NCBI RefSeq assembly: GCF_025263265.1
Contig: NZ_CP079869.1
Span: forward strand, 4,774,001 to 4,838,000
Direction of reading: 5' to 3'
Origin: Mycobacterium sp. SMC-4
GTDB lineage: Bacteria > Actinomycetota > Actinomycetes > Mycobacteriales > Mycobacteriaceae
DNA: 64,000 nt
Shown here piece by piece: positions 27,308 to 41,193 of this stretch (positions within the stretch are counted from its first letter, which is position 1; each line of letters begins with the position of its first letter). The notes under the pieces were generated by a model. It saw nothing but the letters and a program-made list of their open reading frames with translations, had not been told where the DNA came from and did not search any database. Both the position numbers and the translations under genes were made by a program.

Positions 27308-28999
27308 TCAGTCCGAGGCGGATCCGCTGCGACCGGCCCCACCGTCGCCACCGGCTCCGCCGGAACCGCCGCTGGTCCCGGACGGCCCGCTGCCGGAGCT
27401 CCCGGCGCTACCCGCGCTACCCGGGGAGATCCCGCCGCCGGAGTTGTACGCCGAGCCACCGTTGCCGCCCTTACCACCGGCGCCGCCGGTGCCGCCGGTG
27501 CCGTCGAGACCGCTGCCTCCGGTGGCGCCATCGCGGCCGAAGATGCCACCCTTGCCGCCCTCGGCTCCAGCGCCTCCGATACCGGCGTCGCCGCCGGCTC
27601 CGCCGTCGCCGCCCCGTCCACCGGTGCCGCCGTCGGCATTGCCGGGATAGGTGACCAGGGTCGGGCTGAATTTCAGGTTCTGGATCCCGCCCGCCCCACC
27701 GAGACCGCCATTGCCGCCATTGCCGCCGGTCGCCCCGTCGCCGCCGTCGCCGCCGTCGCCGCCGCCTCCCCCTGCGCCGCCGTTGCCTACCAGCAGACCG
27801 CCGCGACCTCCGGTGCCTCCCGCGCCGCCGCTGGTGCCGCTGGAGCCGGCTGTGCCCGCTCCACCATTGCCACCGTTTCCGCCGTGTCCGCCGGCCGCAA
27901 CGCCGGTCGGTTCGGTATTCGACGAGAAGATGACGGCTGTCGCGTTGTTCCCGTTGCCGCCATTGCCGCCATTGCCGCCGCCGGGACCGCCGTTACCGCC
28001 GTTACCGCCGTTACCGGCCGTCGCGTCATAGCGCGCAGATCCGCCACCGCCCCAGCCGCCGTTGCCGCCGGGCGCGCCCGGGACGTCGGTGTCCCCGCCG
28101 TTGCCGCCGTTACCGCTGACGGCGATCGACGTGCTGTTGTTCGGTCCCGTCGACTGGGCGCCCTGGCCGCGGCCACCGTGTCCACCGCCGGTGGCCCCTT
28201 CGCCGCCGGGCGCGCCATTGCCGGCGTTGGCGCCGATGACGGTTCCACTTGCCGACAGTGAGGGAGCGCCGGTGAAGTCCGGAGTGCCGGTGGCAGCCCG
28301 CGTACCGTCCCAGGCCGGGTTGACACCGTCGGCGCCGTCGAAGCCTGCTCCACCGCTACCGCCGTTGCCGCCATTGCCGATCAACGTGTACTTGCCGACA
28401 CTGCCGCCGTTGCCGCCGTTGCCGCCGTTGTGGATCGCGTCACCGGCAGCGCCGTTGCCGGCGTTACCCCCGCTGCCGATCAGGGCGAAGATGCCCGCGT
28501 TGCCGCCGTTACCCCCGGCGCCGTCGCGGAAGCCGAGGACACCGTCGGCGCCGTGACCGCCGTTGCCGCCGAACCATCCGCCGTTGCCGCCGTTGCCCCC
28601 GTTGACCCCGTTGCCGCCCTTGCCGAACAGCAGCCCGCCGTTCTGGCCGTCCGGGTTGTCCTCGGTGCCGTCCTTGCCGTTGCAGATCCATCCGCAGGAG
28701 TTGCTCAGTGCGGCGGCCAACCCGTCGGCGGTGAGCGCTGTGTAGTTCGTCGGACCGCCGCCGCTGCTGCTGCGCCGCTCGCCCTCGAGCCACCAGGGTG
28801 GCGCCCCGGAAGGGCTCAACGGGGCGAGAACCGAGTCGAACGACACCAGGTTCACGGCCACAGATTCCGGCGCTGATGCACCGTTGGGAGAATCGAGCAA
28901 CGTACCTAGCCCAGTTAATGCGAGTCCGCCGGCTCCGAGAAAACTACTCACGCGGAGCACTGCTTTAGGCTTTGAGCTGGCAATTCTATGCTTAGGCAC
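27308..28999 (-). CDS. PGRS-like Gly-Asn-rich protein, MPKH type (copy 1)
   Basis: About 563 residues. GTG 28999 gives the start VPKHRIASSKPK, which mirrors the MPKHSKVRK start of the paralogue at 44061, has CAGGGG upstream and lies after a promoter-like TTGACA; the frame itself is open to 29083. A basic N-terminus is followed by a hydrophobic segment FLGAGGLALTGLGTLL, then ERRSSSGGGP, a cysteine pair SCGWIC, and about 450 residues of GGxGGN repeats like the PGRS domain of PE_PGRS proteins. There is no PE domain. It is probably exported or cell-wall-associated. Function unknown. Located where M. tuberculosis has PPE61/PPE62. Confidence 0.8.
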   Translation of the reverse strand: MPKHRIASSKPKAVLRVSSFLGAGGLALTGLGTLLDSPNGASAPESVAVNLVSFDSVLAPLSPSGAPPWWLEGERRSSSGGGPTNYTALTADGLAAALSNSCGWICNGKDGTEDNPDGQNGGLLFGKGGNGVNGGNGGNGGWFGGNGGHGADGVLGFRDGAGGNGGNAGIFALIGSGGNAGNGAAGDAIHNGGNGGNGGSVGKYTLIGNGGNGGSGGAGFDGADGVNPAWDGTRAATGTPDFTGAPSLSASGTVIGANAGNGAPGGEGATGGGHGGRGQGAQSTGPNNSTSIAVSGNGGNGGDTDVPGAPGGNGGWGGGGSARYDATAGNGGNGGNGGPGGGNGGNGGNGNNATAVIFSSNTEPTGVAAGGHGGNGGNGGAGTAGSSGTSGGAGGTGGRGGLLVGNGGAGGGGGDGGDGGDGATGGNGGNGGLGGAGGIQNLKFSPTLVTYPGNADGGTGGRGGDGGAGGDAGIGGAGAEGGKGGIFGRDGATGGSGLDGTGGTGGAGGKGGNGGSAYNSGGGISPGSAGSAGSSGSGPSGTSGGSGGAGGDGGAGRSGSASD

Positions 29000-29061
29000 G
29001 AGATCAACCCCTGGTTGCGATGTCGTCTTGCCACCCGCCGGTGGAACTTTGGTTAATATTG

Positions 29062-29090
29062 ACATAACCGTCGAGCCATTCAAATGTCAA
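29062..29090 (-). promoter_or_regulatory. Promoter-like sequence of PGRS-like gene copy 1
   Basis: On the minus strand TTGACA (29090-29085) is separated by 17 nt from TTATGT (29067-29062). Transcription from it would begin near 29055, downstream of the ATGs at 29083 and 29065. This supports the GTG start at 28999. Confidence 0.4.
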
Positions 29091-29106: not shown

Positions 29107-31182
29107 CTAGCTCGATGCCGCCAACACAAAGGGCAGTACCTCGGGGGCCCCGCCCGCGCGCAGCATTCGCGCAGCCATCGTCAGCGTCCAGCCCGTGTCG
29201 GTGTAGTCGTCGACGAGGAGTACCGGCCCGTCACAGTCGATTGTCGGCGGCTCCCACGCCTGGTTCAGCCCAGCAACCCGGTAGGCAGAGTTCGCGGCCG
29301 TGACGGGTCGGTGGTCGATCGCATAGGCCAGCACACCCAGGTTCGCCAGACGGCCGATCTGTGCCAGTCGCTCTACCGTCGACGAGATCAGCTTCGGGTG
29401 GGTGTGGGAGTCCAGTCCCATCACCGCGGCCGGACGATACTGCCAGTCCCAGGCTTTGAGCACGATGACGGCCGCGTCCACGACCTCGTCGGGGACGTCT
29501 TGGTCGGGTTCGGCCAGCAGACGCCGCAGACGTGCACCCCAACCCAGATCGGTGAGCCGTCCCACCGCCCGGCCAGAGCTCGCGCCGTCGGTGATCCGGC
29601 CGGACAGCTCAAGGCCCAGAGAACCCAGACCCGAGGGCCACTGTTTGCGGGTCGCGACCTCTACGCCCGGACGGCGGAGTCGTTGGCTGGTCACGGTCAA
29701 CGTTGCGTCGTCGACCGTCGAGGAATAGCGGTTCCCCGTGCAGTTGTCGCAGCGTCCACACTGCTCGCCTGCTGTCAGGTCGGGGTCGTCGAGTTGCCGG
29801 CGCAGGAACACCATCCGGCACCCTTCGGTGTTCTGGTAGTCGAGCATCGCCTGCTGTTCACGTCGGCGGGCCGCGTCGAGCGCGCGGTACCGGGGTTCGT
29901 CGTAGTCCCACGCCTGCCCGGTGGCCAGCCAGCCGCCTTTGACCCGGCGCACCGCGCCGTCGACGTCGAGCACCTTGAGCACCATCTCCAGCCGGGAACG
30001 GTTCAGGTCCACTTGGGCCTCCAGCGCCGGGGTGGACTGCGGCCGCTCGGTGTCGAGGGCGCGTATAACGTTGCGCACCAACACTTCCGGCGGGAACGCG
30101 ACCGAGGCGAAGTAGCGCCAGACATCCTGGTCCTCGGTCCCCGGCAGCAGGATCACTTCGGCACTGTCTGTCGCTCGCCCGGCGCGCCCGACCTGCTGGT
30201 AGTAGGCAATGGGCGACGACGGCGCACCCAGATGCACCACGAAGCCGAGATCGGGCTTGTCGAAACCCATTCCGAGCGCCGACGTGGCGACCAGCGCCTT
30301 GACCCGATTGCCGAGTAGATCGGTTTCCAGCTGTTCACGTTCGGCGGTGTCGGTGGCCCCGGTGTACGCCGCGACGGTGTGCCCCTGCTCGCGGAGCAGC
30401 CCGGCCACATCGTGGGCCTGGGCCACGGTCAGCGTGTAGACGATGCCACTGCCGGGTAGCGAATCCAGCTGCGCAGCAAGCCAAGAAGCCCGCCGGGCGG
30501 GCGTACCGACCTTCACCACCGACAACCGCAACGATTCGCGGTCCAGCCCGCCACGAAGCACCAACGTGTCTGCACCCCCGACCTCGAGCTGGGTGGCGAT
30601 ATCGCTGACCACCCGGTCGTTGGCGGTCGCGGTGGTGGCCAGCACCGGTACACCCGCACCGAGTTCGGAAATCAACGTGCGAATCCGCCGGTAGTCGGGG
30701 CGGAAATCGTGTCCCCAGTCCGACACACAGTGGGCTTCGTCGACGACCACCAGTCCGGCGTTCGCGGCCAGGGCCGGCAGGACGTTGTCCCGAAAATCGG
30801 GGTTGTTGAGGCGCTCCGGGCTGACCAGCAGCACGTCGAGATCCCCGGCGGCGACCCGGCGGTGAATGGAGTCCCACTCGGTGACGTTGCCGGAGTTGAT
30901 CGTGGCCGCGTGCACGCCGGCCCGCTGCGCGGCAGCGACCTGGTTGCGCATCAGCGCCAGCAGCGGCGACACGATGACCGTCGGACCCAGGCCGGCGGCG
31001 CGCAGCAGCTTCGCGGCGATGAAGTACACCGCCGACTTGCCCCAACCGGTGCGCTGTACGACCAACGCCCGTCGACGCGCGACGACCAGCGCTTCTATCG
31101 CTGTCCACTGGTCGTCACGCAGTCGGGCATCGGGGCCGGCCAGTCCCTCGAGCAGCGCCTGCGCCTCGGTTCTGGTTGCCAT
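29107..31182 (-). CDS. RecQ-like helicase with C-terminal phosphoribosyltransferase-like domain
   Basis: A 691-residue superfamily 2 helicase. Motif I is QRTGWGKSAVYF (near residue 45), motif II VVVDEAHCVSDWGHDFRPDY, motif III ATTATAND, motif VI VGRAGRATDSAE. The RecQ zinc site is a cysteine set, CRMVFLRRQL and CGRCDNC (near 430-455). Instead of an HRDC domain it ends with VLLVDDYTDTGWTLTMAARMLRAGGA, the PRPP-binding signature of type I phosphoribosyltransferases such as ComF. It unwinds DNA in repair. ATG 31182 begins MATRTEAQAL; the frame runs further up without homology. It is divergent from the SARP gene. Confidence 0.85.
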   Translation of the reverse strand: MATRTEAQALLEGLAGPDARLRDDQWTAIEALVVARRRALVVQRTGWGKSAVYFIAAKLLRAAGLGPTVIVSPLLALMRNQVAAAQRAGVHAATINSGNVTEWDSIHRRVAAGDLDVLLVSPERLNNPDFRDNVLPALAANAGLVVVDEAHCVSDWGHDFRPDYRRIRTLISELGAGVPVLATTATANDRVVSDIATQLEVGGADTLVLRGGLDRESLRLSVVKVGTPARRASWLAAQLDSLPGSGIVYTLTVAQAHDVAGLLREQGHTVAAYTGATDTAEREQLETDLLGNRVKALVATSALGMGFDKPDLGFVVHLGAPSSPIAYYQQVGRAGRATDSAEVILLPGTEDQDVWRYFASVAFPPEVLVRNVIRALDTERPQSTPALEAQVDLNRSRLEMVLKVLDVDGAVRRVKGGWLATGQAWDYDEPRYRALDAARRREQQAMLDYQNTEGCRMVFLRRQLDDPDLTAGEQCGRCDNCTGNRYSSTVDDATLTVTSQRLRRPGVEVATRKQWPSGLGSLGLELSGRITDGASSGRAVGRLTDLGWGARLRRLLAEPDQDVPDEVVDAAVIVLKAWDWQYRPAAVMGLDSHTHPKLISSTVERLAQIGRLANLGVLAYAIDHRPVTAANSAYRVAGLNQAWEPPTIDCDGPVLLVDDYTDTGWTLTMAARMLRAGGAPEVLPFVLAASS

Positions 31183-31264
31183 CAGCCCATCGTGCCCGGC
31201 GGGTCCGACGCGACACCGACAGGGCGTGCAACTTACCGGTATATATGGCCCGCGATCTGCGCAT

Positions 31265-34200
31265 ATGGTTATCTCCGTGGAAGGACGCGGAAGCGACACC
31301 GTGTTAGGAGAGCCGCTCTTCGGCATCCTCGGACCGCTGACGTTGAGCAACGAGGCAGGCCGACCGGTCGACATCGGTGGGCGTAAACAGCGAGAGCTAC
31401 TCGCGGCGCTGCTACTCGACGCCAACCGCGTGATCTCTCACGCCAGGCTTGTCGATGCACTCTGGGCGGGCGGTCCCCCGGCCAGTGTCGAGGTCACGTT
31501 GCGTGCGCACGTCTCACGTCTGAGGTCTCGGTTGGCAGAAGCTGGAGCAGAGAATGCGCTCGTGTCCCGCCCCGGTGGCTACGGCCTGTTTCTGAAGCCT
31601 GAGCAGATCGACGCGCGACGTTTCGAAAAGTTGCTTTCCGACGGCCAGCAAGCGCTTCGACACAACGATCCCGATGGCGCCGCCGACCTGCTCGCCTCCG
31701 CACTGCGGTCGTGGCGCGGAGAGGTACTCCAAGACCTTCACCATCCCGACTTTGCGGCAGCTGAGGCCGCGCGGTTGAGCGAGCTCCGACTGGTCGCGAT
31801 CGAACTTCGGATCCAAGCCGACCTCATGCTCGGTGGCCACGCCGCGGTCATTCCCGAACTCGAACGCCTCATCGTGGATCATCCTTTTCGGGAGACCCTG
31901 CACCGGCAGCTGATGCTCGCGCTATACCAGTCCGGCAGACAGGTGCAGGCGCTCGCCGTAGGCACCGAGATTCGCCGTCGTCTCGCCGATGAACTCGGCG
32001 TCGACCCCGGTCCTGAGTTGCGCGACCTCGAGAGCGCGATCCTCCACCATGATCCGTCGCTGCGTCCCGGCGCATCGACAACGCGGGACGCCACGGTCAG
32101 CTTGCCGCCGGTCACCCCGACCAAGTACCGTCCGCCGGCCGCACCGCGAACGCCGGTGGCCCGGGACCGCTTGATCGACGCGCTGCGCGCTGGCGGTCAC
32201 CGGCGGCTCTTCCTCATCCACGGGCCGGCCGGATTCGGCAAGACAACGCTGGCCGCGCAATGGCGCGAAACACTTCTCGCCCAAGGGGAGACCGTCGCGT
32301 GGTTCACCATCGACGGCGACGACGACAACGTCGTCTGGTTTCTCGCGCACCTGATCGACGCGGTCGGCGGCGTCCGCGCGTTGAGCGAGGAGTTACGCGG
32401 CGCCGTGAATGATCACGACGCCGATGCCCAGCGGAGAGTGCTTGCGTCTCTGATCAACGAGCTGGAGCATTCCGGGTCGCCGTTCTGGCTCGTCATCGAC
32501 GACTGGCACCGGGTGACCGACGCGGCGACCATTGCGGCACTGACCTACTTGCTCCACCACGGCGGTGAACATCTACGCGTCGTTGTGACAAGCCGTAGTC
32601 GTGCACATCTTCCCCTGGGCCGGATGCGGGTCAGCGATCAGTTGGTGGAAATCGATACCGCAGCTTTACGTTTCGACCAGTCCGAAGCGCGGCGCTTCCT
32701 GCTGCATGCGCGCGGACTGTCACTCAACGACGCGGATGTGGCCACCCTGGGGGCAACCACCGAGGGGTGGATCGCGGCGTTGCAGCTGGTTTCGCTGTCG
32801 CTGCGCGAGAACTCCGATCCGGCGACACTGATCCAGAGCTTGTCGGGTCATCACAGCGGGCTCGGCGAATACCTCGCCGAAAACGTTCTGGACTCCCTCG
32901 AATCGAGCATGCTCGACTTTCTCATGGCCACCTCGCTGCCCGAGCGCGTCACCGGCGACCTGGCCTGCGCGCTGGCAGGGGTGACCAACGGGCAGGCAAT
33001 GCTCGAAGAGGTGGAGAACCGCGACCTGTTCCTGCGTCGACTCGATGACGAGCGGGGCTGGTTCCAGTACCACCAACTGTTCGCCGACTTTCTGCAGCGC
33101 CGACTCGAATGCGGCGATCCCGACCGCATCACGCAGTTACACGCGAAAGCTTCGCGCTGGTTCGCCGACCACCACATGCTCCACGAGGCGATCAGCCACG
33201 CGGTGTCCGCGGGTGACGAGGACCGCGCGATCGAACTGATCGAACATCAGAGCATAGAGTTCGAGCAGCGGGCGCAACTGCCGATGCTGCAGACTCTGGT
33301 TGCCGGCCTTCCGCCACGTATCGTCACCCCGAGTCCGAGGCTGCAGCTCTTCCTGGCCCGCGCCAACAGCCTGCTGCAGCAGCCCGCCGCGGCCCGCGCG
33401 GCACTCGACGCGTTCGACGCCGCCTTGCAGGCCCTGACATTGCCGGAGTCCGAATCACGCGCCATGCGTATCGAGGCAGATGTCTTCCGCGCGCTCGTCG
33501 AAGTCTGGGCCGACCACGGTGCCGGCGTCGAGGAGCTGCTTGACCCGTGTCTGTCCGATCCGGATTCTGTGTCGCCTTTCGTGGTTGCCACAGCGGCGAA
33601 CATCGCCTCATTCGTCGCGACATGTCGGTTCGACTTCACCGCGGCACGCAGATGGCAGGACTGGGCCGATGTGTACCACCGTCGGTCCGGCACATCATTC
33701 GTCCTGATCTACGGGCACTGTCTGGCTGCGATGGCATCGAACCAAGAACTCGACGCGGTCGAGACGCAACGCCGACTCCGCGAAGCGGTCCGCCTCGCAA
33801 AGACATCCGGCGCCCCGACGTCGCATGCTGCGCGCGTGGCCTATGCGCTGTCCGCCGAGTTCCTCTACGAGCGCGATCAGGTGGACGAAGCCGAGCGGCT
33901 TCTCGAAGAGAGCGGCGGCTTCGGCACGCCCGGCGGACCGCCGGTCGAATTCATGATCGCCCGCTGTGTCACCGGCGCACGAATCAAGATGCTGCGCGGA
34001 CAGCATGACGCCGCCGCTGAAATCCTAGACGGTGCAGCCAATGTCGCGGCCACCGCGGACTTGCCTCGATTGAGTGCTGCGGTGGCGACCGAGCGCATCC
34101 GGCTGGGCTTGCCGACGCCGCGGCACCCGATTCGGCAGGCCACCGACCGCGGGATCTTGCACGATGTCACCGCACAATTGCGCGACGAGTGTGCCACCCT

Positions 34201-34513
34201 CGCACTGCTGGACGACGATCCCGACCTCGCCTGCCGGCGCGCCGAGGGCTGGGTGAACCGGCTGGCAGCTCACCATCGTCCGCGGGCCCTGTTGAACGCC
34301 AACCGACTTTTCGCCGCCGCGCTGGCCGCCGCGGGTCGAGCCGATGAGGCCAGTCACGTCCTCGCCTGCGTCGCCGCACAATGCGCCGAAAGGGACATGG
34401 TCCGCTTCTTGCTCGACGGCGGACCGCACCTGGTGGCCCTGTTGCCCGGCCTGCGCAACCATCCCGGGGTTCGGCAGGACTTCCTGGAACAGGTGCTCAG
34501 CGCCGCGACCTGA
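31265..34513 (+). CDS. SARP/BTAD regulator with MalT-like ATPase
   Basis: About 1082 residues. Residues ~15-110 are an OmpR-type winged helix (PLFGILGPLTLSNEAGRPVDIGG, RKQRELLAALLLDANRVISHARLVDALW). A BTAD tetratricopeptide domain follows to ~260 (LFGG.. style WRGEVLQDLHHPDFAAAEAARL, ALYQSGRQVQALAVGTEIRRRLADELGVDPGPELRDLE). An NTPase domain has the P-loop GPAGFGKTT near 320 and WLVIDDWHRVTD as Walker B. The rest is helical repeat. This is the AfsR/MalT type of activator. ATG 31265 is chosen; GTG 31277 is also possible. It is directly followed by 11-bp-phased repeats and the small secreted-protein gene, its likely target. Confidence 0.85.
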   Translation: MVISVEGRGSDTVLGEPLFGILGPLTLSNEAGRPVDIGGRKQRELLAALLLDANRVISHARLVDALWAGGPPASVEVTLRAHVSRLRSRLAEAGAENALVSRPGGYGLFLKPEQIDARRFEKLLSDGQQALRHNDPDGAADLLASALRSWRGEVLQDLHHPDFAAAEAARLSELRLVAIELRIQADLMLGGHAAVIPELERLIVDHPFRETLHRQLMLALYQSGRQVQALAVGTEIRRRLADELGVDPGPELRDLESAILHHDPSLRPGASTTRDATVSLPPVTPTKYRPPAAPRTPVARDRLIDALRAGGHRRLFLIHGPAGFGKTTLAAQWRETLLAQGETVAWFTIDGDDDNVVWFLAHLIDAVGGVRALSEELRGAVNDHDADAQRRVLASLINELEHSGSPFWLVIDDWHRVTDAATIAALTYLLHHGGEHLRVVVTSRSRAHLPLGRMRVSDQLVEIDTAALRFDQSEARRFLLHARGLSLNDADVATLGATTEGWIAALQLVSLSLRENSDPATLIQSLSGHHSGLGEYLAENVLDSLESSMLDFLMATSLPERVTGDLACALAGVTNGQAMLEEVENRDLFLRRLDDERGWFQYHQLFADFLQRRLECGDPDRITQLHAKASRWFADHHMLHEAISHAVSAGDEDRAIELIEHQSIEFEQRAQLPMLQTLVAGLPPRIVTPSPRLQLFLARANSLLQQPAAARAALDAFDAALQALTLPESESRAMRIEADVFRALVEVWADHGAGVEELLDPCLSDPDSVSPFVVATAANIASFVATCRFDFTAARRWQDWADVYHRRSGTSFVLIYGHCLAAMASNQELDAVETQRRLREAVRLAKTSGAPTSHAARVAYALSAEFLYERDQVDEAERLLEESGGFGTPGGPPVEFMIARCVTGARIKMLRGQHDAAAEILDGAANVAATADLPRLSAAVATERIRLGLPTPRHPIRQATDRGILHDVTAQLRDECATLALLDDDPDLACRRAEGWVNRLAAHHRPRALLNANRLFAAALAAAGRADEASHVLACVAAQCAERDMVRFLLDGGPHLVALLPGLRNHPGVRQDFLEQVLSAAT

Positions 34514-34516
34514 CCG

Positions 34517-34546
34517 CGACAACAGCGCTGCAACAGATCTGCAACA
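34517..34546. promoter_or_regulatory. Three 11-bp-phased direct repeats, SARP-type operator
   Basis: CGACAACA (34517), CTGCAACA (34528) and CTGCAACA (34539) recur with an exact period of 11 bp and share CnnCAACA. SARP/BTAD activators bind heptameric direct repeats with this 11-bp spacing just upstream of, or over, the -35 region. They lie 3 bp after the SARP gene and 86 bp before the secreted-protein ATG. CACTGT near 34555 could serve as a poor -10, which is typical for activator-dependent promoters. Confidence 0.6.
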
Positions 34547-34631
34547 CCCCATGGCCACTGTTGTGGAGTCATCTCACACGGCGTTCGCGGGGGAATCAGC
34601 CGACGAGCCAATCGACTGAAGGAGCACACAG

Positions 34632-35093
34632 ATGAACACCACTTCTTTACGCAAACGCATGTCGGCTGCCGTAGTCGGCACGACAGCCGCGGCTCTGGCC
34701 GTCGGCGCACTCGTCCAGCCTGCGGTCTCACATGCGGAAAGGGTGTGGGACATCCAGGCGTGGGACACCTGCATGAAAGGCGTCCGCGAGAGAGAGGAGA
34801 AGGGCCAGATCAGTGTCCAACAAGCGCTGGAAGAAAAACGCTTTTGCTGCGACATGTCAGGTGGTGTGTGGTCTGCCGACGCCAACGGGTCGTTCTGCGC
34901 GGCCCCACCCGCGACGGCCCAGTCGGCACCACAGGCACCGTGGGATGCCGGACGGGCCCCCAGGCCACAGTCGGCGGGCGGCGGACAAACTCCGGCACCG
35001 AACGCGCCGCCACCCGCCTCAGGCGGCCCGGGGACTGTCACCGCGATTCCCAACCCGTCGGGCTGGGGATGGGGTTTCGGGTTCACCCCCTAG
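34632..35093 (+). CDS. Small secreted Cys-containing protein
   Basis: A 153-residue protein with a signal peptide: basic MNTTSLRKRMS, hydrophobic AAVVGTTAAALAVGALVQPAVS, and probable cleavage after HA near residue 36. The mature part has cysteines in DTCMKG, KRFCCDMSGG and GSFCAAPP, which suggests two disulfides, then a Pro/Gly/Ala-rich tail ending NPSGWGWGFGFTP. AAGGAG precedes the ATG. It is not recognised as any named family. It follows the SARP gene and the phased repeats, so it may be the output of that regulator; this is inferred. Confidence 0.75.
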   Translation: MNTTSLRKRMSAAVVGTTAAALAVGALVQPAVSHAERVWDIQAWDTCMKGVREREEKGQISVQQALEEKRFCCDMSGGVWSADANGSFCAAPPATAQSAPQAPWDAGRAPRPQSAGGGQTPAPNAPPPASGGPGTVTAIPNPSGWGWGFGFTP

Positions 35094-36025: not shown

Positions 36026-36520
36026 TCAGCTGGGCGTAGCAGCAGCCTCAGGCTGTCCCGGTGTCGGCTCGATCACCTGGGGAACCTCGACAGGAACCTC
36101 AGCGGGCACCTCGGCCATGTCCGTGCTGCTCCAGACGGCCTGGGCCACCGGAGTCGGCGTCAGCTGCAGGTCACATTGCGCCTTCAGCGCGCTGACCGGC
36201 TGGTGGATGCTCGACAGCTCCTGCGCAACCTCAGGATTCTGCTCGAAGAACTCCTGATAGGCGGTCTGGGCCTGGTCCTGCGACTGCGCAGAGATGGCGG
36301 ACAGCGCCTCGTTGGCGTCCGGGTTCGCCGTCAGATACGCGCCCTCCGAAGCAGCAGCTGAGCCCACTGTCCCGGCCACGCTCGCTGCGGAGCAGTCCGG
36401 TGCGGGGGCCGGCTGAGCGTTAGCTACCGGGGTGACGATCGCTGCTGTGCCGAAAGCCAGCAGTCCACCGGCGAACATGCCGAAGAGACCGCGACGAACA
36501 CTCGTGGCGGACCTGTTCAT
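36026..36520 (-). CDS. Secreted hemophore-like protein
   Basis: About 164 residues. A signal peptide (MNRSATSVRRGLFGMFAGGLLAFGTAAIVTPVANA) precedes a short helical domain bracketed by two cysteines (PDCSAASVAG and LKAQCDLQ) with SEGAYLTANPDANEALSAI and YQEFFEQNPEVAQEL, the pattern of mycobacterial hemophore-family domains (Rv0203 type). The tail is Pro/Glu/Val-rich. These proteins bind heme outside the cell and hand it to MmpL transporters. ATG 36520 fits AAAGGAG; GTG 36529 would be too close to it. No MmpL gene is nearby, so heme binding is an inference from the fold. Confidence 0.8.
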   Translation of the reverse strand: MNRSATSVRRGLFGMFAGGLLAFGTAAIVTPVANAQPAPAPDCSAASVAGTVGSAAASEGAYLTANPDANEALSAISAQSQDQAQTAYQEFFEQNPEVAQELSSIHQPVSALKAQCDLQLTPTPVAQAVWSSTDMAEVPAEVPVEVPQVIEPTPGQPEAAATPS

Positions 36521-36615
36521 GAAAACCACTCCTTTGCTTTGCGATCAGTCGGTCGCATCGTGTCTTTTGCCCGAAAAGCCGCAGGTCAAACCCGCGCTCA
36601 CGCACAACGGACCGA

Positions 36616-36666: not shown

Positions 36667-37719
36667 TTAAGTCGCAGCTGTTTCTTGTTCGCGTTTGATC
36701 TCCAGTGCGATGTCGATGAGCTGGTCTTCCTGACCGCCGATCAGCTTGCGTTGGCCGGCGCGGTGCAGCAGCTGGTGGGCGGGCACACCGTAGCGCTCGG
36801 ATTGGCGGATCGCGTGCTTGAGGAAGCTGGAGTACACCCCGGAGTAACCCATGATCAGCGCATTGCGGTCGAGCAGACATTCGGCCGGCATCGCCGGGGC
36901 GACGACCTCTTCGGCGGCGTCGGCGATGTCGAAGAAGTCGATACCGGTCTTGACGCCGATCTTGTCGAACACCCCGATCAGCGCCTCGACCGGGGCGTTG
37001 CCCGCCCCGGCCCCGAACCGCCGGCACGACCCGTCGATCTGCTTGGCCCCGGCACGCACCGCCTCGATCGAGTTCGCCACCCCCAGGCCGAGGTTCTCGT
37101 GGCCATGGAAACCCACCTGAGCGTCCTCGCCGAGTTCGGCGACCAGCGCCGCGACCCGGTCACGCACCCCTTCGAGCACCAGCGCACCGGCCGAATCGAC
37201 GACGTAGACGCACTGACAACCGGCATCAGCCATGATCCGAGCCTGCGCGGCAAGCTTCTCCGGGGAGATCGTATGGCTCATCATCAAAAAGCCCACCGTC
37301 TCCAAACCCAGCTCGCGGGCCAGCCCGAAGTGCTGAATCGACACATCAGCCTCGGTGCAGTGGGTCGCGATCCGGCAGATCGAGCCGCCGTTGTTCTGCG
37401 CTTCCTTGATGTCCTCCTTGGTGCCGACACCCGGCAACATCAAAAAGGCGATCTTCGATTCCTTGGCCGTCTCGGCGGCCAGCTTGATCAGCTCCTGCTC
37501 CGGGGTCTTGGAGAAGCCGTAGTTGAAGCTCGACCCGCCCAGACCGTCACCGTGGGTGACCTCGATGACCGGCACACCAGCCGCATCCAGCGCGGCGACG
37601 ATCGCGCCGACCTCCTCGGTGGTGAACTGATGACGTTTGTGGTGCGACCCATCGCGCAGCGACGTATCAGTCATCCGGACGTCCCAGATCGGGTTGAAGT
37701 AGATGCCGTCGGTACTCAT
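36667..37719 (-). CDS. hsaF: 4-hydroxy-2-oxovalerate-type aldolase HsaF
   Basis: A 350-residue class II pyruvate aldolase (M. tuberculosis Rv3534c is 346). [19 protein letters not shown] holds the metal-binding Asp and the RDGSH motif; [15 protein letters not shown] supplies the two metal histidines, and [10 protein letters not shown] closes the site. It cleaves 4-hydroxy-2-oxohexanoate, the C6 fragment of rings A/B, to pyruvate and propanal, which is channelled to HsaG. ATG 37719 overlaps the hsaG stop (ATGA). It is the last gene of hsaE-hsaG-hsaF. Confidence 0.96.
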
Positions 37720-38636
37720 GCTTGCGCTCCAGTCGTGGACAGACTCTCTTTGGCGATCTCTTCGCCCACCTTGGCCGCGGCGGCGGTCATGATGTCCAGG
37801 TTTCCAGCGTAGGGCGGTAGATAATCGCCCGCACCCTCCACTTCCACGAACACGGTGACCACGTGGTTTCCGCCGTTGACGACCGAGGGCTCGTCGAACT
37901 GTGGTTCGTTGAGCAACCGGTACCCGGGCACGTAGGTCTGCACCTCGGCAACCACATCCTTGACCGACTGAGTGATCGCCGCGTGGTCGGCATCTTCGGG
38001 GATCGCGCAGAAGATCGTGTCGCGCATGATCATCGGCGGCTCGGCCGGGTTGAGGATGATGATCGCCTTGCCGCGCTTGGCTCCGCCGATCACCTCGACA
38101 CCGGCACTGGTGGTCTTGGTGAACTCGTCGATGTTGGCCCGGGTGCCCGGCCCGGCCGAGGCCGACGACACCGACGCCACGATCTCGGCATAGGGCACGT
38201 CCACCACGCGAGATACTGCGTGCACCATCGGGATGGTTGCCTGTCCGCCGCAGGTCACCATGTTGACGTTCGGCGCATCGAGGTGCTCGCGCAGGTTGGC
38301 TGGCGGGATCACCCCGGGCCCGATGGCCGCCGGGGTCAGGTCGATGGCCCGGATGCCCGCCTCGGCGTAGCGCGGCGCGGCATCGCGGTGCACATAGGCG
38401 CTGGTGGCTTCGAACACCATGTCGGGCTTCTCCGACTGCGCCAGCAACCAGTCGACACCTTCATGCGAGGTCTCCAGGCCGAGCTTGCGCGCGCGCGCCA
38501 AACCTTCGCTGTCCGGGTCGATGCCGATCATCCAGCGCGGCTCCAGCCACTGCGAGCGCAGCAGCTTGTAGAGCAGATCGGTACTGATGTTGCCGGACCC
38601 CACGATCGCGACGGAGGCTTTCTTGGCCGTAGACAT
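37716..38636 (-). CDS. hsaG: Acylating aldehyde dehydrogenase HsaG
   Basis: A 306-residue enzyme (M. tuberculosis Rv3535c is 303). [18 protein letters not shown] is the NAD-binding loop, and [17 protein letters not shown] holds the catalytic cysteine. [20 protein letters not shown] is a family hallmark. It oxidises propanal from HsaF to propionyl-CoA and works as a complex with HsaF through a channel. It is 14 bp downstream of hsaE in the KstR-controlled operon. Confidence 0.96.
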
Positions 38637-38650
38637 TGCTGGTCCTTCGC

Positions 38651-39436
38651 TTATTCGAAACTGAGCCGTACTGAACCTAAACCGCTGAAGTCGGCGACGA
38701 AATGGCTACCGGGAGGTGCATCTATCGCACGGGTGCACGAGCCCGGTAAGACGATGTCGCCGGCCTTCAGACGCACCCCGAAACTGTCGACCTTGCGGGC
38801 CAGCCACGCCACCGCGGTGACCGGGTTGCCCAGCACGGCGTCGCTGCGCCCCTCGGCCACCACGTCGCCGTTGTTCGTCAGCACCGCGTCGATGCCTTTG
38901 ATGTCGATGTCCTTGGGCGACACCCGCGCCTCACCGAGCACCCAACCGGCCGAGGACGCGTTGTCGGCGATCGTGTCGCAGAGTTTGATCTGCCAGTTCG
39001 TGATCCGAGTGTCGATGAGCTCGATCGCCGGACAAAAGGCGGCAGTCGCGGCCAGCACGTCGTCCTCGGTGCACCCGGCTCCGGGCAGGTCATCGGCCAG
39101 GATGAAGCCCACCTCGACCTCGACCCGCGGGTACAGGTACTTCTCCGAGCGCACCGGCGCGTCTTCGAACACCTGCATATCGTCGAGCAGATGGCCGTAA
39201 TCGGGCTCGTCGACGTTCATCATCTTCTGCATGGCCTCCGACGAGAGACCGACCTTGTGACCGACCACGCGCGCGCCCTCGGCGACTTTCTGGCGGATGT
39301 TGATCAGCTGAATCTCATAGGCGTCGACCACATCGATGTCGGGGTGCGCGTCGGTCAGCGGAGAGATCGGTTGCCGGCTGCGCTCGGCCTGGGCCAAGTC
39401 GGCGGCAAGTCGCTCACGGACCTCGGAACTGAGCAT
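38651..39436 (-). CDS. hsaE: 2-hydroxydienoate hydratase HsaE
   Basis: A 261-residue member of the fumarylacetoacetase/2-keto-4-pentenoate hydratase family (M. tuberculosis Rv3536c). [15 protein letters not shown] carries the ExE metal ligands, and [29 protein letters not shown] is typical. It adds water to 2-hydroxyhexa-2,4-dienoate released by HsaD, giving the HsaF substrate. It is divergent from kstD across a KstR site, and a TAGAAT box on the minus strand near 39492 may be its -10. Confidence 0.95.
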
Positions 39437-39495
39437 CTTCGGTGAAGTCCCCTCGTTTCGTCGACCGGCACAGTTGTGGGTCGGCCGGGCAATTC

Positions 39496-39509
39496 TATAA
39501 CGTGTTCTA
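39496..39509. promoter_or_regulatory. KstR operator, hsaEGF / kstD
   Basis: TATAACGTGTTCTA fits TnnAACnnGTTnnA and ends 1 bp before the kstD ATG (39511). TAACGT inside it (39498-39503) stands exactly 7 nt from that ATG and can be the -10 of a leaderless kstD mRNA. Confidence 0.92.
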
Positions 39510-39510
39510 C

Positions 39511-41193
39511 ATGACCGAGCAGGAGTATGACGTCGTCGTGGTGGGCAGCGGCGCCGCGGGTATGGTCGCCGCCCTTACTGCCGCCCACCAGGGTCTCTCG
39601 ACGATAGTCGTTGAGAAGGCCCCGCACTACGGTGGTTCCACTGCGCGGTCAGGTGGCGGCGTCTGGATTCCGAACAACGAGGTACTCAAGCGCGACGGTG
39701 TGAACGACACCCGCGAGGCCGCCCGAACCTACCTGCACGCCATCATCGGCGACGTGGTGCCGGCCGAGAAGATCGACACCTATCTCGACCGCGGACCCGA
39801 GATGTTGTCGTTCGTGTTGAAGAACTCTCCGCTGAAGCTGTGCTGGGTACCCAACTACGCCGACTACTACCCCGAGACTCCGGGCGGCAAGGCCACCGGC
39901 CGCTCGGTGGAACCCAAACCGTTCGATGCGAGCAAGCTCGGGCCCGATCTCGGCGGCCTGGAGCCGCCGTACGGCAAGGTCCCGATGAACATGGTCGTGA
40001 TGCAGCAGGACTACGTCCGTCTCAACCAGCTCAAACGTCATCCGCGCGGACTGCTGCGCAGCCTCAAGGTGGGGGCACGCACGGTATGGGCCAACGCCAC
40101 GCGCAAGAACCTGGTCGGGATGGGTCGGGCGTTGATCGCACCACTGCGTATCGCGCTGCGAGACGCCGGTGTCCCGGTTCGGCTCAACACCGCGCTGACC
40201 GACCTCTACGTCGAGGACGGTGTGGTGCGCGGAATCTACGTCCGTGACACAACCACCGGGGAAAGCGCTGAGCCGCAACTGATCCGGGCGCGTCGCGGTG
40301 TGATCCTGGGCAGTGGAGGCTTTGAACACAACGAGCAGATGCGGGTGAAGTACCAACGCGCCCCGATCACCACGGAGTGGACCGTCGGCGCGGTTGCCAA
40401 CACCGGGGACGGAATCCTTGCCGCCGAAAAGCTCGGTGCCGCACTTGATGTCATGGAGGACGCCTGGTGGGGACCGACGGTCCCGCTGATCGGTGCACCG
40501 TGGTTCGCATTGTCGGAACGCAATTCACCCGGGTCGATCATCGTCAACATGAACGGCAAGCGGTTCATGAACGAGTCGATGCCCTACGTCGAAGCGTGCC
40601 ATCACATGTATGGCGGACAGTACGGGCAGGGCCCCGGGCCCGGCGAGAACATTCCGGCATGGCTGGTGTTCGACCAGCAATACCGCGACCGCTACATCTT
40701 CGCGGGACTTCAGCCAGGACAACGCATTCCGAAGAAGTGGCTGGAGTCCGGCGTCATTGTGACCGCTCCGACACTGGAGGAGCTGGCAACCAAGACCGGC
40801 CTGCCCGCCGATGCCTTCACGGCCACGGTGGCGCGGTTCAACGGATTCGCGCGGGCCGGTGTCGACGAGGATTTCAAGCGCGGGCAGAGCGCCTATGACC
40901 GCTACTACGGCGATCCGACCAACAAGCCCAACCCCAACCTGGGCGAGATCACCCACGGGCCGTACTACGCCGCCAAGCTGGTGCCGGGAGACCTGGGCAC
41001 CAAGGGTGGCATCGTCACCGACGTGAACGGACGCGCCCTGCGCGACGACGGCTCGGTGATCGAGGGACTCTATGCTGCAGGCAACGTCAGCGCCCCGGTG
41101 ATGGGTCACACCTATCCGGGTCCGGGTGGCACCATCGGCCCGGCGATGACGTTCGGTTATCTGGCGGCACTCCACCTTGCAGGAAAGGCCTGA
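39511..41193 (+). CDS. kstD: 3-ketosteroid delta-1-dehydrogenase KstD
   Basis: A 560-residue flavoprotein (M. tuberculosis Rv3537 is 563). The FAD loop is VVVVGSGAAGMVAALTAAHQG; active-site tyrosines are expected in NYADYYPE, MPYVEA and HTYPGPGG, the last with the conserved Gly that activates the 3-keto group. It makes the C1-C2 double bond in ring A of androstenedione-type steroids. ATG 39511 was chosen over an open frame from 39442 because homologues start here. The KstR operator ends at the preceding base but one, so the transcript is probably leaderless and repression direct. Confidence 0.96.
   Translation: MTEQEYDVVVVGSGAAGMVAALTAAHQGLSTIVVEKAPHYGGSTARSGGGVWIPNNEVLKRDGVNDTREAARTYLHAIIGDVVPAEKIDTYLDRGPEMLSFVLKNSPLKLCWVPNYADYYPETPGGKATGRSVEPKPFDASKLGPDLGGLEPPYGKVPMNMVVMQQDYVRLNQLKRHPRGLLRSLKVGARTVWANATRKNLVGMGRALIAPLRIALRDAGVPVRLNTALTDLYVEDGVVRGIYVRDTTTGESAEPQLIRARRGVILGSGGFEHNEQMRVKYQRAPITTEWTVGAVANTGDGILAAEKLGAALDVMEDAWWGPTVPLIGAPWFALSERNSPGSIIVNMNGKRFMNESMPYVEACHHMYGGQYGQGPGPGENIPAWLVFDQQYRDRYIFAGLQPGQRIPKKWLESGVIVTAPTLEELATKTGLPADAFTATVARFNGFARAGVDEDFKRGQSAYDRYYGDPTNKPNPNLGEITHGPYYAAKLVPGDLGTKGGIVTDVNGRALRDDGSVIEGLYAAGNVSAPVMGHTYPGPGGTIGPAMTFGYLAALHLAGKA

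Follow-up and report, generated by a model that had tools for sequence, protein, structure and literature searches.

Organization of the Locus

The window, a 64,000-nucleotide stretch of DNA from Mycobacterium sp. SMC-4, contains the gene for a large regulator that is followed on the same strand by three short direct repeats, a -10-like hexamer, a conserved leader block and the gene for a small exported protein (Table 1). Regulator, repeats and exported-protein gene are referred to below as the trio or module, and the repeats as the operator.

Table 1. Features of the regulator-operator-exported protein trio in the window, and the regulator remnant of a related genome.
Feature	Position	Strand	Remarks
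1082-aa regulator, SARP head and MalT-like STAND NTPase/TPR core	31265..34513	+	Pfam, NCBIfam and PDB sequence matches
Operator heptamer 1, CGACAAC	34517..34523	+	least conserved of the three
Operator heptamer 2, CTGCAAC	34528..34534	+	
Operator heptamer 3, CTGCAAC	34539..34545	+	
-10-like hexamer, CACTGT	34556..34561	+	17 bp from the first base of heptamer 3 to that of the hexamer
Conserved leader block	34584..34624	+	ends in AAGGAG, the likely ribosome-binding site; predicted to form two small hairpins
153-aa exported four-cysteine protein	34632..35093	+	signal-peptide-like start (by eye); no Pfam or NCBIfam match
Regulator remnant in genome G105	L096, about 1236-2205		residues ~50-735 skipped

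The regulator combines a SARP head, with the N-terminal winged helix and BTAD domain that characterize SARP regulators (residues ~15-275), with a STAND NTPase/TPR core (residues ~285-1065). A database copy has 1078 amino acids, which leaves the position of the start codon in doubt by a few codons. Pfam assigned Trans_reg_C (1.2e-09), BTAD (1.1e-45), AAA and MalT-like TPR domains and listed no LuxR-type HTH/GerE domain, and a SARP head on an ATP-binding core without the LuxR HTH is the architecture of PimR-type SARP-LAL proteins. An earlier reading of the sequence alone had described a BTAD regulator of ~1082 residues that ends just before the repeats; the domain is indeed recognized by Pfam and the stop codon lies at 34511-34513. 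In PDB sequence alignments, residues 15-332 aligned with AfsR, residues 9-280 with EmbR (2fez) and residues 285-692 with Escherichia coli MalT. According to the NCBIfam equivalog models, the protein is an orthologue neither of AfsR (185.3 bits, cut-off 1430) nor of MalT (317.4 bits, cut-off 537, with no HTH listed).

A genome scan with the whole regulator returned 39 loci. Approximately full-length matches were obtained at two of them, in a Mycobacteriaceae MAG (L001) and in M. elephantis (L002), and the other 37 aligned from about residue 224 or later. In the three core-matching loci that were tested, a protein-kinase domain replaced the SARP head, and no relative of the secreted protein lay beside any of the 37 within the neighbourhood DNA examined. 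Searching proteins with residues 1-500 gave at least 60 clusters with BTAD plus NTPase domains. A close relative of the head (E <= 1e-80, best five candidates per genome scored) was present in 7 of 396 genus genomes, and one of the seven was truncated. Twenty regions were examined, two with close relatives (L156 and L157) and 18 with lower SARP hits that served as controls. One of the latter, L168, is a chimera with a MalT-type core, while the other 17 match up to about residue 465 only and have no site; further chimeras may exist beyond the lower hits examined.

The trio is flanked by the steroid-degradation genes hsaF, hsaG and hsaE and a kstD-like gene (36667-41193). The switch may be connected with steroids; a second module (see section “Conservation of the Trio”) lies elsewhere, and none of these steroid genes was detected around chimera L168. 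A haem-binding, haemophore-type exported protein of the MHB family (Pfam) is encoded at 36026-36529 on the - strand. Next to the trio, or to what remains of it, an MHB protein is also encoded in L002, L050, L051, L095 and L157; in L001 it lies further off, and none was found near L052. Divergent from the regulator is a gene for a RecQ-like DEAD helicase (Pfam; 29107-31233, - strand), the C-terminal part of which has a putative resemblance to phosphoribosyltransferases. This helicase occurs in six of the seven hsa-locus relatives (not in L052), although it is not always adjacent. A very glycine/asparagine-rich open frame of 591 amino acids (27308-29083, - strand), which presumably resembles PGRS-type repeats, is probably the source of a 9-bp periodicity in the repeat scan.

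Operator Repeats and Promoter Geometry

The array reads CGACAAC agcg CTGCAAC agat CTGCAAC (34517-34545), with 4-bp spacers and a period of 11 bp, and begins four bases past the stop codon of the regulator. The pentamer CAACA starts at 34520, 34531 and 34542, and on both strands this is the single such triple in the window. The exact 11-bp triple repeat of the sequence-only reading is thus present, and the interval given there (34517..35093) was also right, with the refinement that the motif itself occupies just 34517-34561. Direct repeats 11 bp apart in the target promoter are what is seen with SARP regulators.

When the + strand of the window was scanned for period-11 triples of any identical 5-mer, CAACA was the one found. 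CAACA triples did not occur in 200 dinucleotide shuffles of the window, and identical 5-mer triples of any sequence at this period occurred 0.285 times per shuffled window. In the 118-bp spacer, shuffled 20,000 times, a period-11 triple had a frequency of 0.00035, and a triple at any period from 6 to 22 had a frequency of 0.00285 (further 20,000 shuffles). The repeat triple by itself is only moderately unusual, and it is therefore the conservation that carries the weight.

The -10-like hexamer was set at -12 to -7 by convention and its role as a working -10 element is putative. With this placement, transcription is predicted to start near 34568, the heptamers start at -51, -40 and -29, and heptamer 2 covers about -40 to -34.

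Conservation of the Trio

The sequence-only reading had suggested a search for the trio in other mycobacterial genomes and held that the idea would fail if the repeats were absent beside orthologous pairs. Regulator, repeats and secreted gene do recur together in a group of environmental mycobacteria, and an operator with a -10-like hexamer was present in 9/9 intact modules for which DNA was available. Of 297 genus genomes, five contained strong matches (E up to 1e-30) to a profile built from three secreted-protein sequences; as many as 13 candidates were scored per genome among those listed. The regulator and the secreted gene occur together with hsaF-hsaG in L001, L002, L050 (G107), L052 (G018) and L095 (G303). 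The second module, with heptamers CCTCAAC ggat CCTCAAC, was found in M. elephantis (L053) and G211 (L156), and no hsa genes lay around it within 13-14 kb.

The hexamer takes the form NANNGT (CACTGT, GACCGT, GACGGT, GATCGT or CATCGT) and starts always exactly 17 bp from the start of the last heptamer, so that the fixed distance between the 3' repeat and the -10 element known from afsS is also found here. The site rule was drawn up with all nine modules already in view, so that the 9/9 is a description and the fair contrast comes from the controls. The same rule found no site in the 250 bp upstream of secreted paralogues without a regulator (0/12) or in the 250 bp after other SARP genes (0/17), and it was satisfied by 0.76% of 130-bp stretches drawn at random from the window. 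The count of nine leaves out relatives available as protein only, e.g., those of M. novocastrense, M. celeriflavum, M. lehmannii, M. moriokaense and strain XJ662. Across seven distinct operators (L051 duplicates L095 and was omitted; L156 and L168 lie outside the set), the CAAC cores reached 1.90 bits per column, above the other columns (permutation 0.00014). The heptamers as a whole were more conserved than the spacers, with a weaker contrast (0.019).

Two relatives have lost parts of the module. In G105 (L051/L096) the operator and the secreted gene are kept, and of the regulator tblastn recovered residues 6-49 (weakly) and 736-1028 only. This loss looks recent, since the near relative G303 has both genes intact. 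In L157 (G223, about 1983-2842), regulator residues 6-249 run straight into residues 47-89 of the secreted protein, as though a single deletion had taken out core, operator and the beginning of the secreted gene.

Target Specificity

The exact pattern CTGCAAC-N4-CTGCAAC occurred once each in 5 of the 11 genomes scanned (G001, G002, G105, G107 and G303), always at the operator, and the G018 operator has it with one mismatch. Allowing up to one mismatch gave 29 sites in the 11 genomes, six of which are the operators, against 49 for a reversed control pattern. None of the 23 non-operator sites had a CAAC first heptamer together with NANNGT in place. A wider regulon was considered and rejected, as the 29 sites fall below the 49 control matches and 0/23 non-operator sites are complete. 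Seven local stretches were scanned for a further operator upstream of the regulator or elsewhere and none was found. From the distribution of its sites the regulator looks like a one-target protein, with weaker sites possible.

In AfsR, R92 is described to contact the base at repeat position 3 (T-38 and T-27), and replacing this base by A blocks binding (PMC10936776). In L053/L156, heptamer position 3 changes from G to T together with a change from R to H at the residue aligned with R92. This co-variation fits the AfsR contact map, but it was given little weight because a single lineage shows it and, in AfsR, R92 is paired with T.

The Exported Protein and Its Leader

The N-terminus of the exported protein resembles a signal peptide (by eye), and the four or more cysteines proposed earlier for the 153-residue protein are exactly four (residues 47, 72, 73 and 89), invariant in 16/16 aligned sequences including that of the window. 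An AlphaFold2 model was confident only for residues ~41-90 (block means 93-97), which form two helices and a beta-hairpin. Overall the model reached a pLDDT of 64 and a pTM of 0.41, with low confidence in the proline-rich tail, and it had no PDB fold match at E 0.001 (best E 1.1). The family comprises 62 proteins, none with a Pfam domain, and all named hits are mycobacterial. Twelve paralogues without a nearby regulator were examined, and the family is therefore wider than the switch. PADLOC returned no match to anti-phage defence systems. Most likely, the exported protein belongs to the envelope or is extracellular.

The leader is near-invariant in six hsa-locus sequences, namely those of the window, L001, L002, L050, L095 and L051 (the last two nearly identical), and diverges in L052. 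Six of 396 genus genomes contain its first 20 bases with no more than one mismatch, five of them at the operator, and there were no 11-bp repeats upstream of leader matches lying away from the operator. Two RNA structures were considered and discarded. Between operator and leader, the window, L001 and L002 look palindromic by eye, which suggested a covarying hairpin; the palindrome fails by eye in L048, and in the fold of the six aligned leaders 0/11 pairs had changed on both sides. The G-run raised the idea of a known riboswitch, but the four Rfam hits obtained with E values up to 10 were unrelated and scored far below their cut-offs.

A Chimeric Module and a Second Cassette Family

In the module of G205 (L168), core identity to the other eight is 63-68% in the NTPase part and 53-60% in the TPR part, whereas the head is only 32-35% identical to their heads, which share 58-99% among themselves. 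Its exported neighbour has 88 residues, two cysteines and no Pfam family above the cut-off. The site reads TTCGAAT ccgc CCCGAAT with CATCGT at 17 bp, and base shuffling of the spacer produced such a site with a frequency of 0.0015.

Counting G205, seven of 396 genus genomes encode the 88-residue protein. In five of the six others its relative is preceded by a regulator with a G205-type head (62-64% identical); in G375, no regulator was found beside the G205-type exported protein in 7.5 kb. The cores of these five family-2 regulators are 26-28% identical to that of G205, and the one tested (L183) is NB-ARC-like; a different core had not been predicted. The strict site rule fails in all five family-2 modules: the scan returned nothing in three, and inspection of the sequence showed the same for the other two. 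A looser pattern of degenerate heptamers with GACGGT or GAAGGT at 17 bp is present in 5/5, for example ATTTCAC gatc GTCCAAC gtct GCCGAAA, in a register that was picked after looking, with a pair identity of 2-4 of 7 and with other NANNGT hexamers in each of the five stretches. The G205 heptamer is closer to family 2, with CCGAA in common.

These comparisons of head, neighbour and core make G205 a combination of a family-2 head and exported neighbour with a family-1 core. As far as this chimera indicates, head, operator and secreted gene may move as a unit between sensors. A broader reading is that a transferable set of SARP head, 11-bp-phased promoter and exported protein has been recombined onto STAND cores that carry kinase heads elsewhere, and that the exported proteins are dedicated outputs of NLR-like bacterial sensors. 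We offer this tentatively and at less than even odds.

Proposed Mechanism and Alternatives

We propose, with a probability of about 0.82, that the trio is a self-contained cassette in which the regulator switches on the adjacent exported protein through the 11-bp-phased operator. The MalT-like STAND core would sense a signal and oligomerise, and the SARP heads would bind side by side on the 11-bp-spaced heptamers at 34517-34545 and contact RNA polymerase. RNA polymerase would then start from the weak -10 element (34556-34561), and the four-cysteine protein would be switched on. The DNA and its relatives supply the anatomy, the repeats, their spacing and conservation, the homologies of head and core and one core-keeping relative with a differing head, operator and neighbour. 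The sequence-only reading had the regulator activating the secreted gene: the link between the two is supported as far as comparison of genomes reaches, and activation, like binding, the signal sensed and the role of the exported protein, is what we infer from it.

Chance repeats within a GC-rich spacer are hardly credible. About 0.285 identical 5-mer triples of any sequence are expected at period 11 per shuffled window, but the frequency within the 118-bp spacer is 0.00035, and conservation of the array across species refutes this explanation. It is also very improbable that the conserved element is an RNA leader or read-through element that acts post-transcriptionally, with the 11-bp repeats as a by-product. 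The strong conservation of the leader at 34584-34624 would suit such an element; against it, compensatory changes were found in 0/11 pairs (six sequences), no Rfam family came near its cut-off and the repeat spacing is kept in modules without the leader (L053, L156 and L168).

A different SARP could bind the repeats in trans, the neighbouring regulator being incidental or acting elsewhere. Other SARP genes are present in these genomes, and the G105 operator persists though its regulator lost most of the head and the NTPase region. However, the operator adjoins the regulator in 9/9 intact modules, a differing head goes with a differing heptamer and the exact heptamer pair is found nowhere else in the 11 genomes scanned, which makes binding in trans decidedly unlikely. 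Lastly, the switch could be real and the exported protein a component of the sensing loop, acting back on the STAND core as a reporter or ligand, and not an effector. We regard this as unlikely: one apparent target, strict adjacency and the description of STAND cores as inducer-triggered platforms (PMC4381067) speak for it, but in G205 the same core type adjoins an unrelated exported protein, so that the exported protein does not follow the core, and paralogues exist without any such core nearby. The self-contained cassette, with the exported protein as its output, is the reading that we retain.

Comparison with Known Systems

SARPs are chiefly activators of antibiotic synthesis in Streptomyces, and the mycobacterial example in the literature that we searched is EmbR. 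Among open-licence papers, by titles and the starts of abstracts, we found no mycobacterial cassette of a SARP and a secreted protein. A cassette with an uncharacterised exported output is a small and directly testable system, and G205 can serve as a natural experiment, in which the target would be expected to depend on the head and the signal on the core. We know of no signal for PknK; since the sensor core is of the MalT/PknK type, finding the inducer could inform PknK too.

The gene afsS is small and adjoins afsR, and the trio resembles this pair of Streptomyces coelicolor in its homologous SARP head, its large STAND-type regulator with TPR and its small target. In afsS, a SARP promoter with a solved structure, two 11-bp repeats are described to span -40 to -19, with CACTGT as the -10 element (PMC10936776), which we place at -12 to -7 by convention. 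In the window the 11-bp repeats would likewise overlap the -35 position and precede a predicted weak -10 with the identical letters, and with the -10 predicted for the window the heptamer register matches the position of the afsS box. Differences are that the core matches MalT, with 185 against 1430 bits at the AfsR equivalog, that there are three heptamers of other sequence instead of two repeats, and that the target is exported.

PimR of Streptomyces natalensis, the archetype SARP-LAL, controls pimM. It shares with our system a SARP joined to a large ATP-binding half without the LuxR HTH, three heptamers, given as TGGCAAG/CGGCAGG/CGGCAAG with 4-bp spacers, and one target (PMC3367932, PMC5930380). 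In these accounts the PimR operator is clear of the -35 region, whereas the operator here, judged from the predicted -10, sits over it, as the afsS box does. By this position the operator does not belong to the polyene type of SARP-LAL sites, which lie upstream of the -35 element without overlapping it; the operators of peptidyl-nucleoside SARP-LALs are described as overlapping -35 (PMC3367932, PMC5930380). The PimR target is moreover a regulator of antibiotic synthesis, in contrast to the exported protein here.

The STAND core family is held in common with PknK-type Ser/Thr kinases of Mycobacterium, Rhodococcus and Nocardia, which carry an N-terminal protein kinase (3/3 tested) where our regulator has a SARP head; PknK has been named as a STAND protein (PMC4381067). 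EmbR of Mycobacterium tuberculosis has a SARP head as well (PDB 2fez), joined to an FHA domain instead of a STAND core (PMC10936776). The one-regulator, one-target cassette is a variant on the AfsR-afsS and PimR-pimM theme, to which are added here the promoter geometry, a STAND core common to kinase-headed proteins and, in G205, a change of head, operator and neighbour with the core kept.
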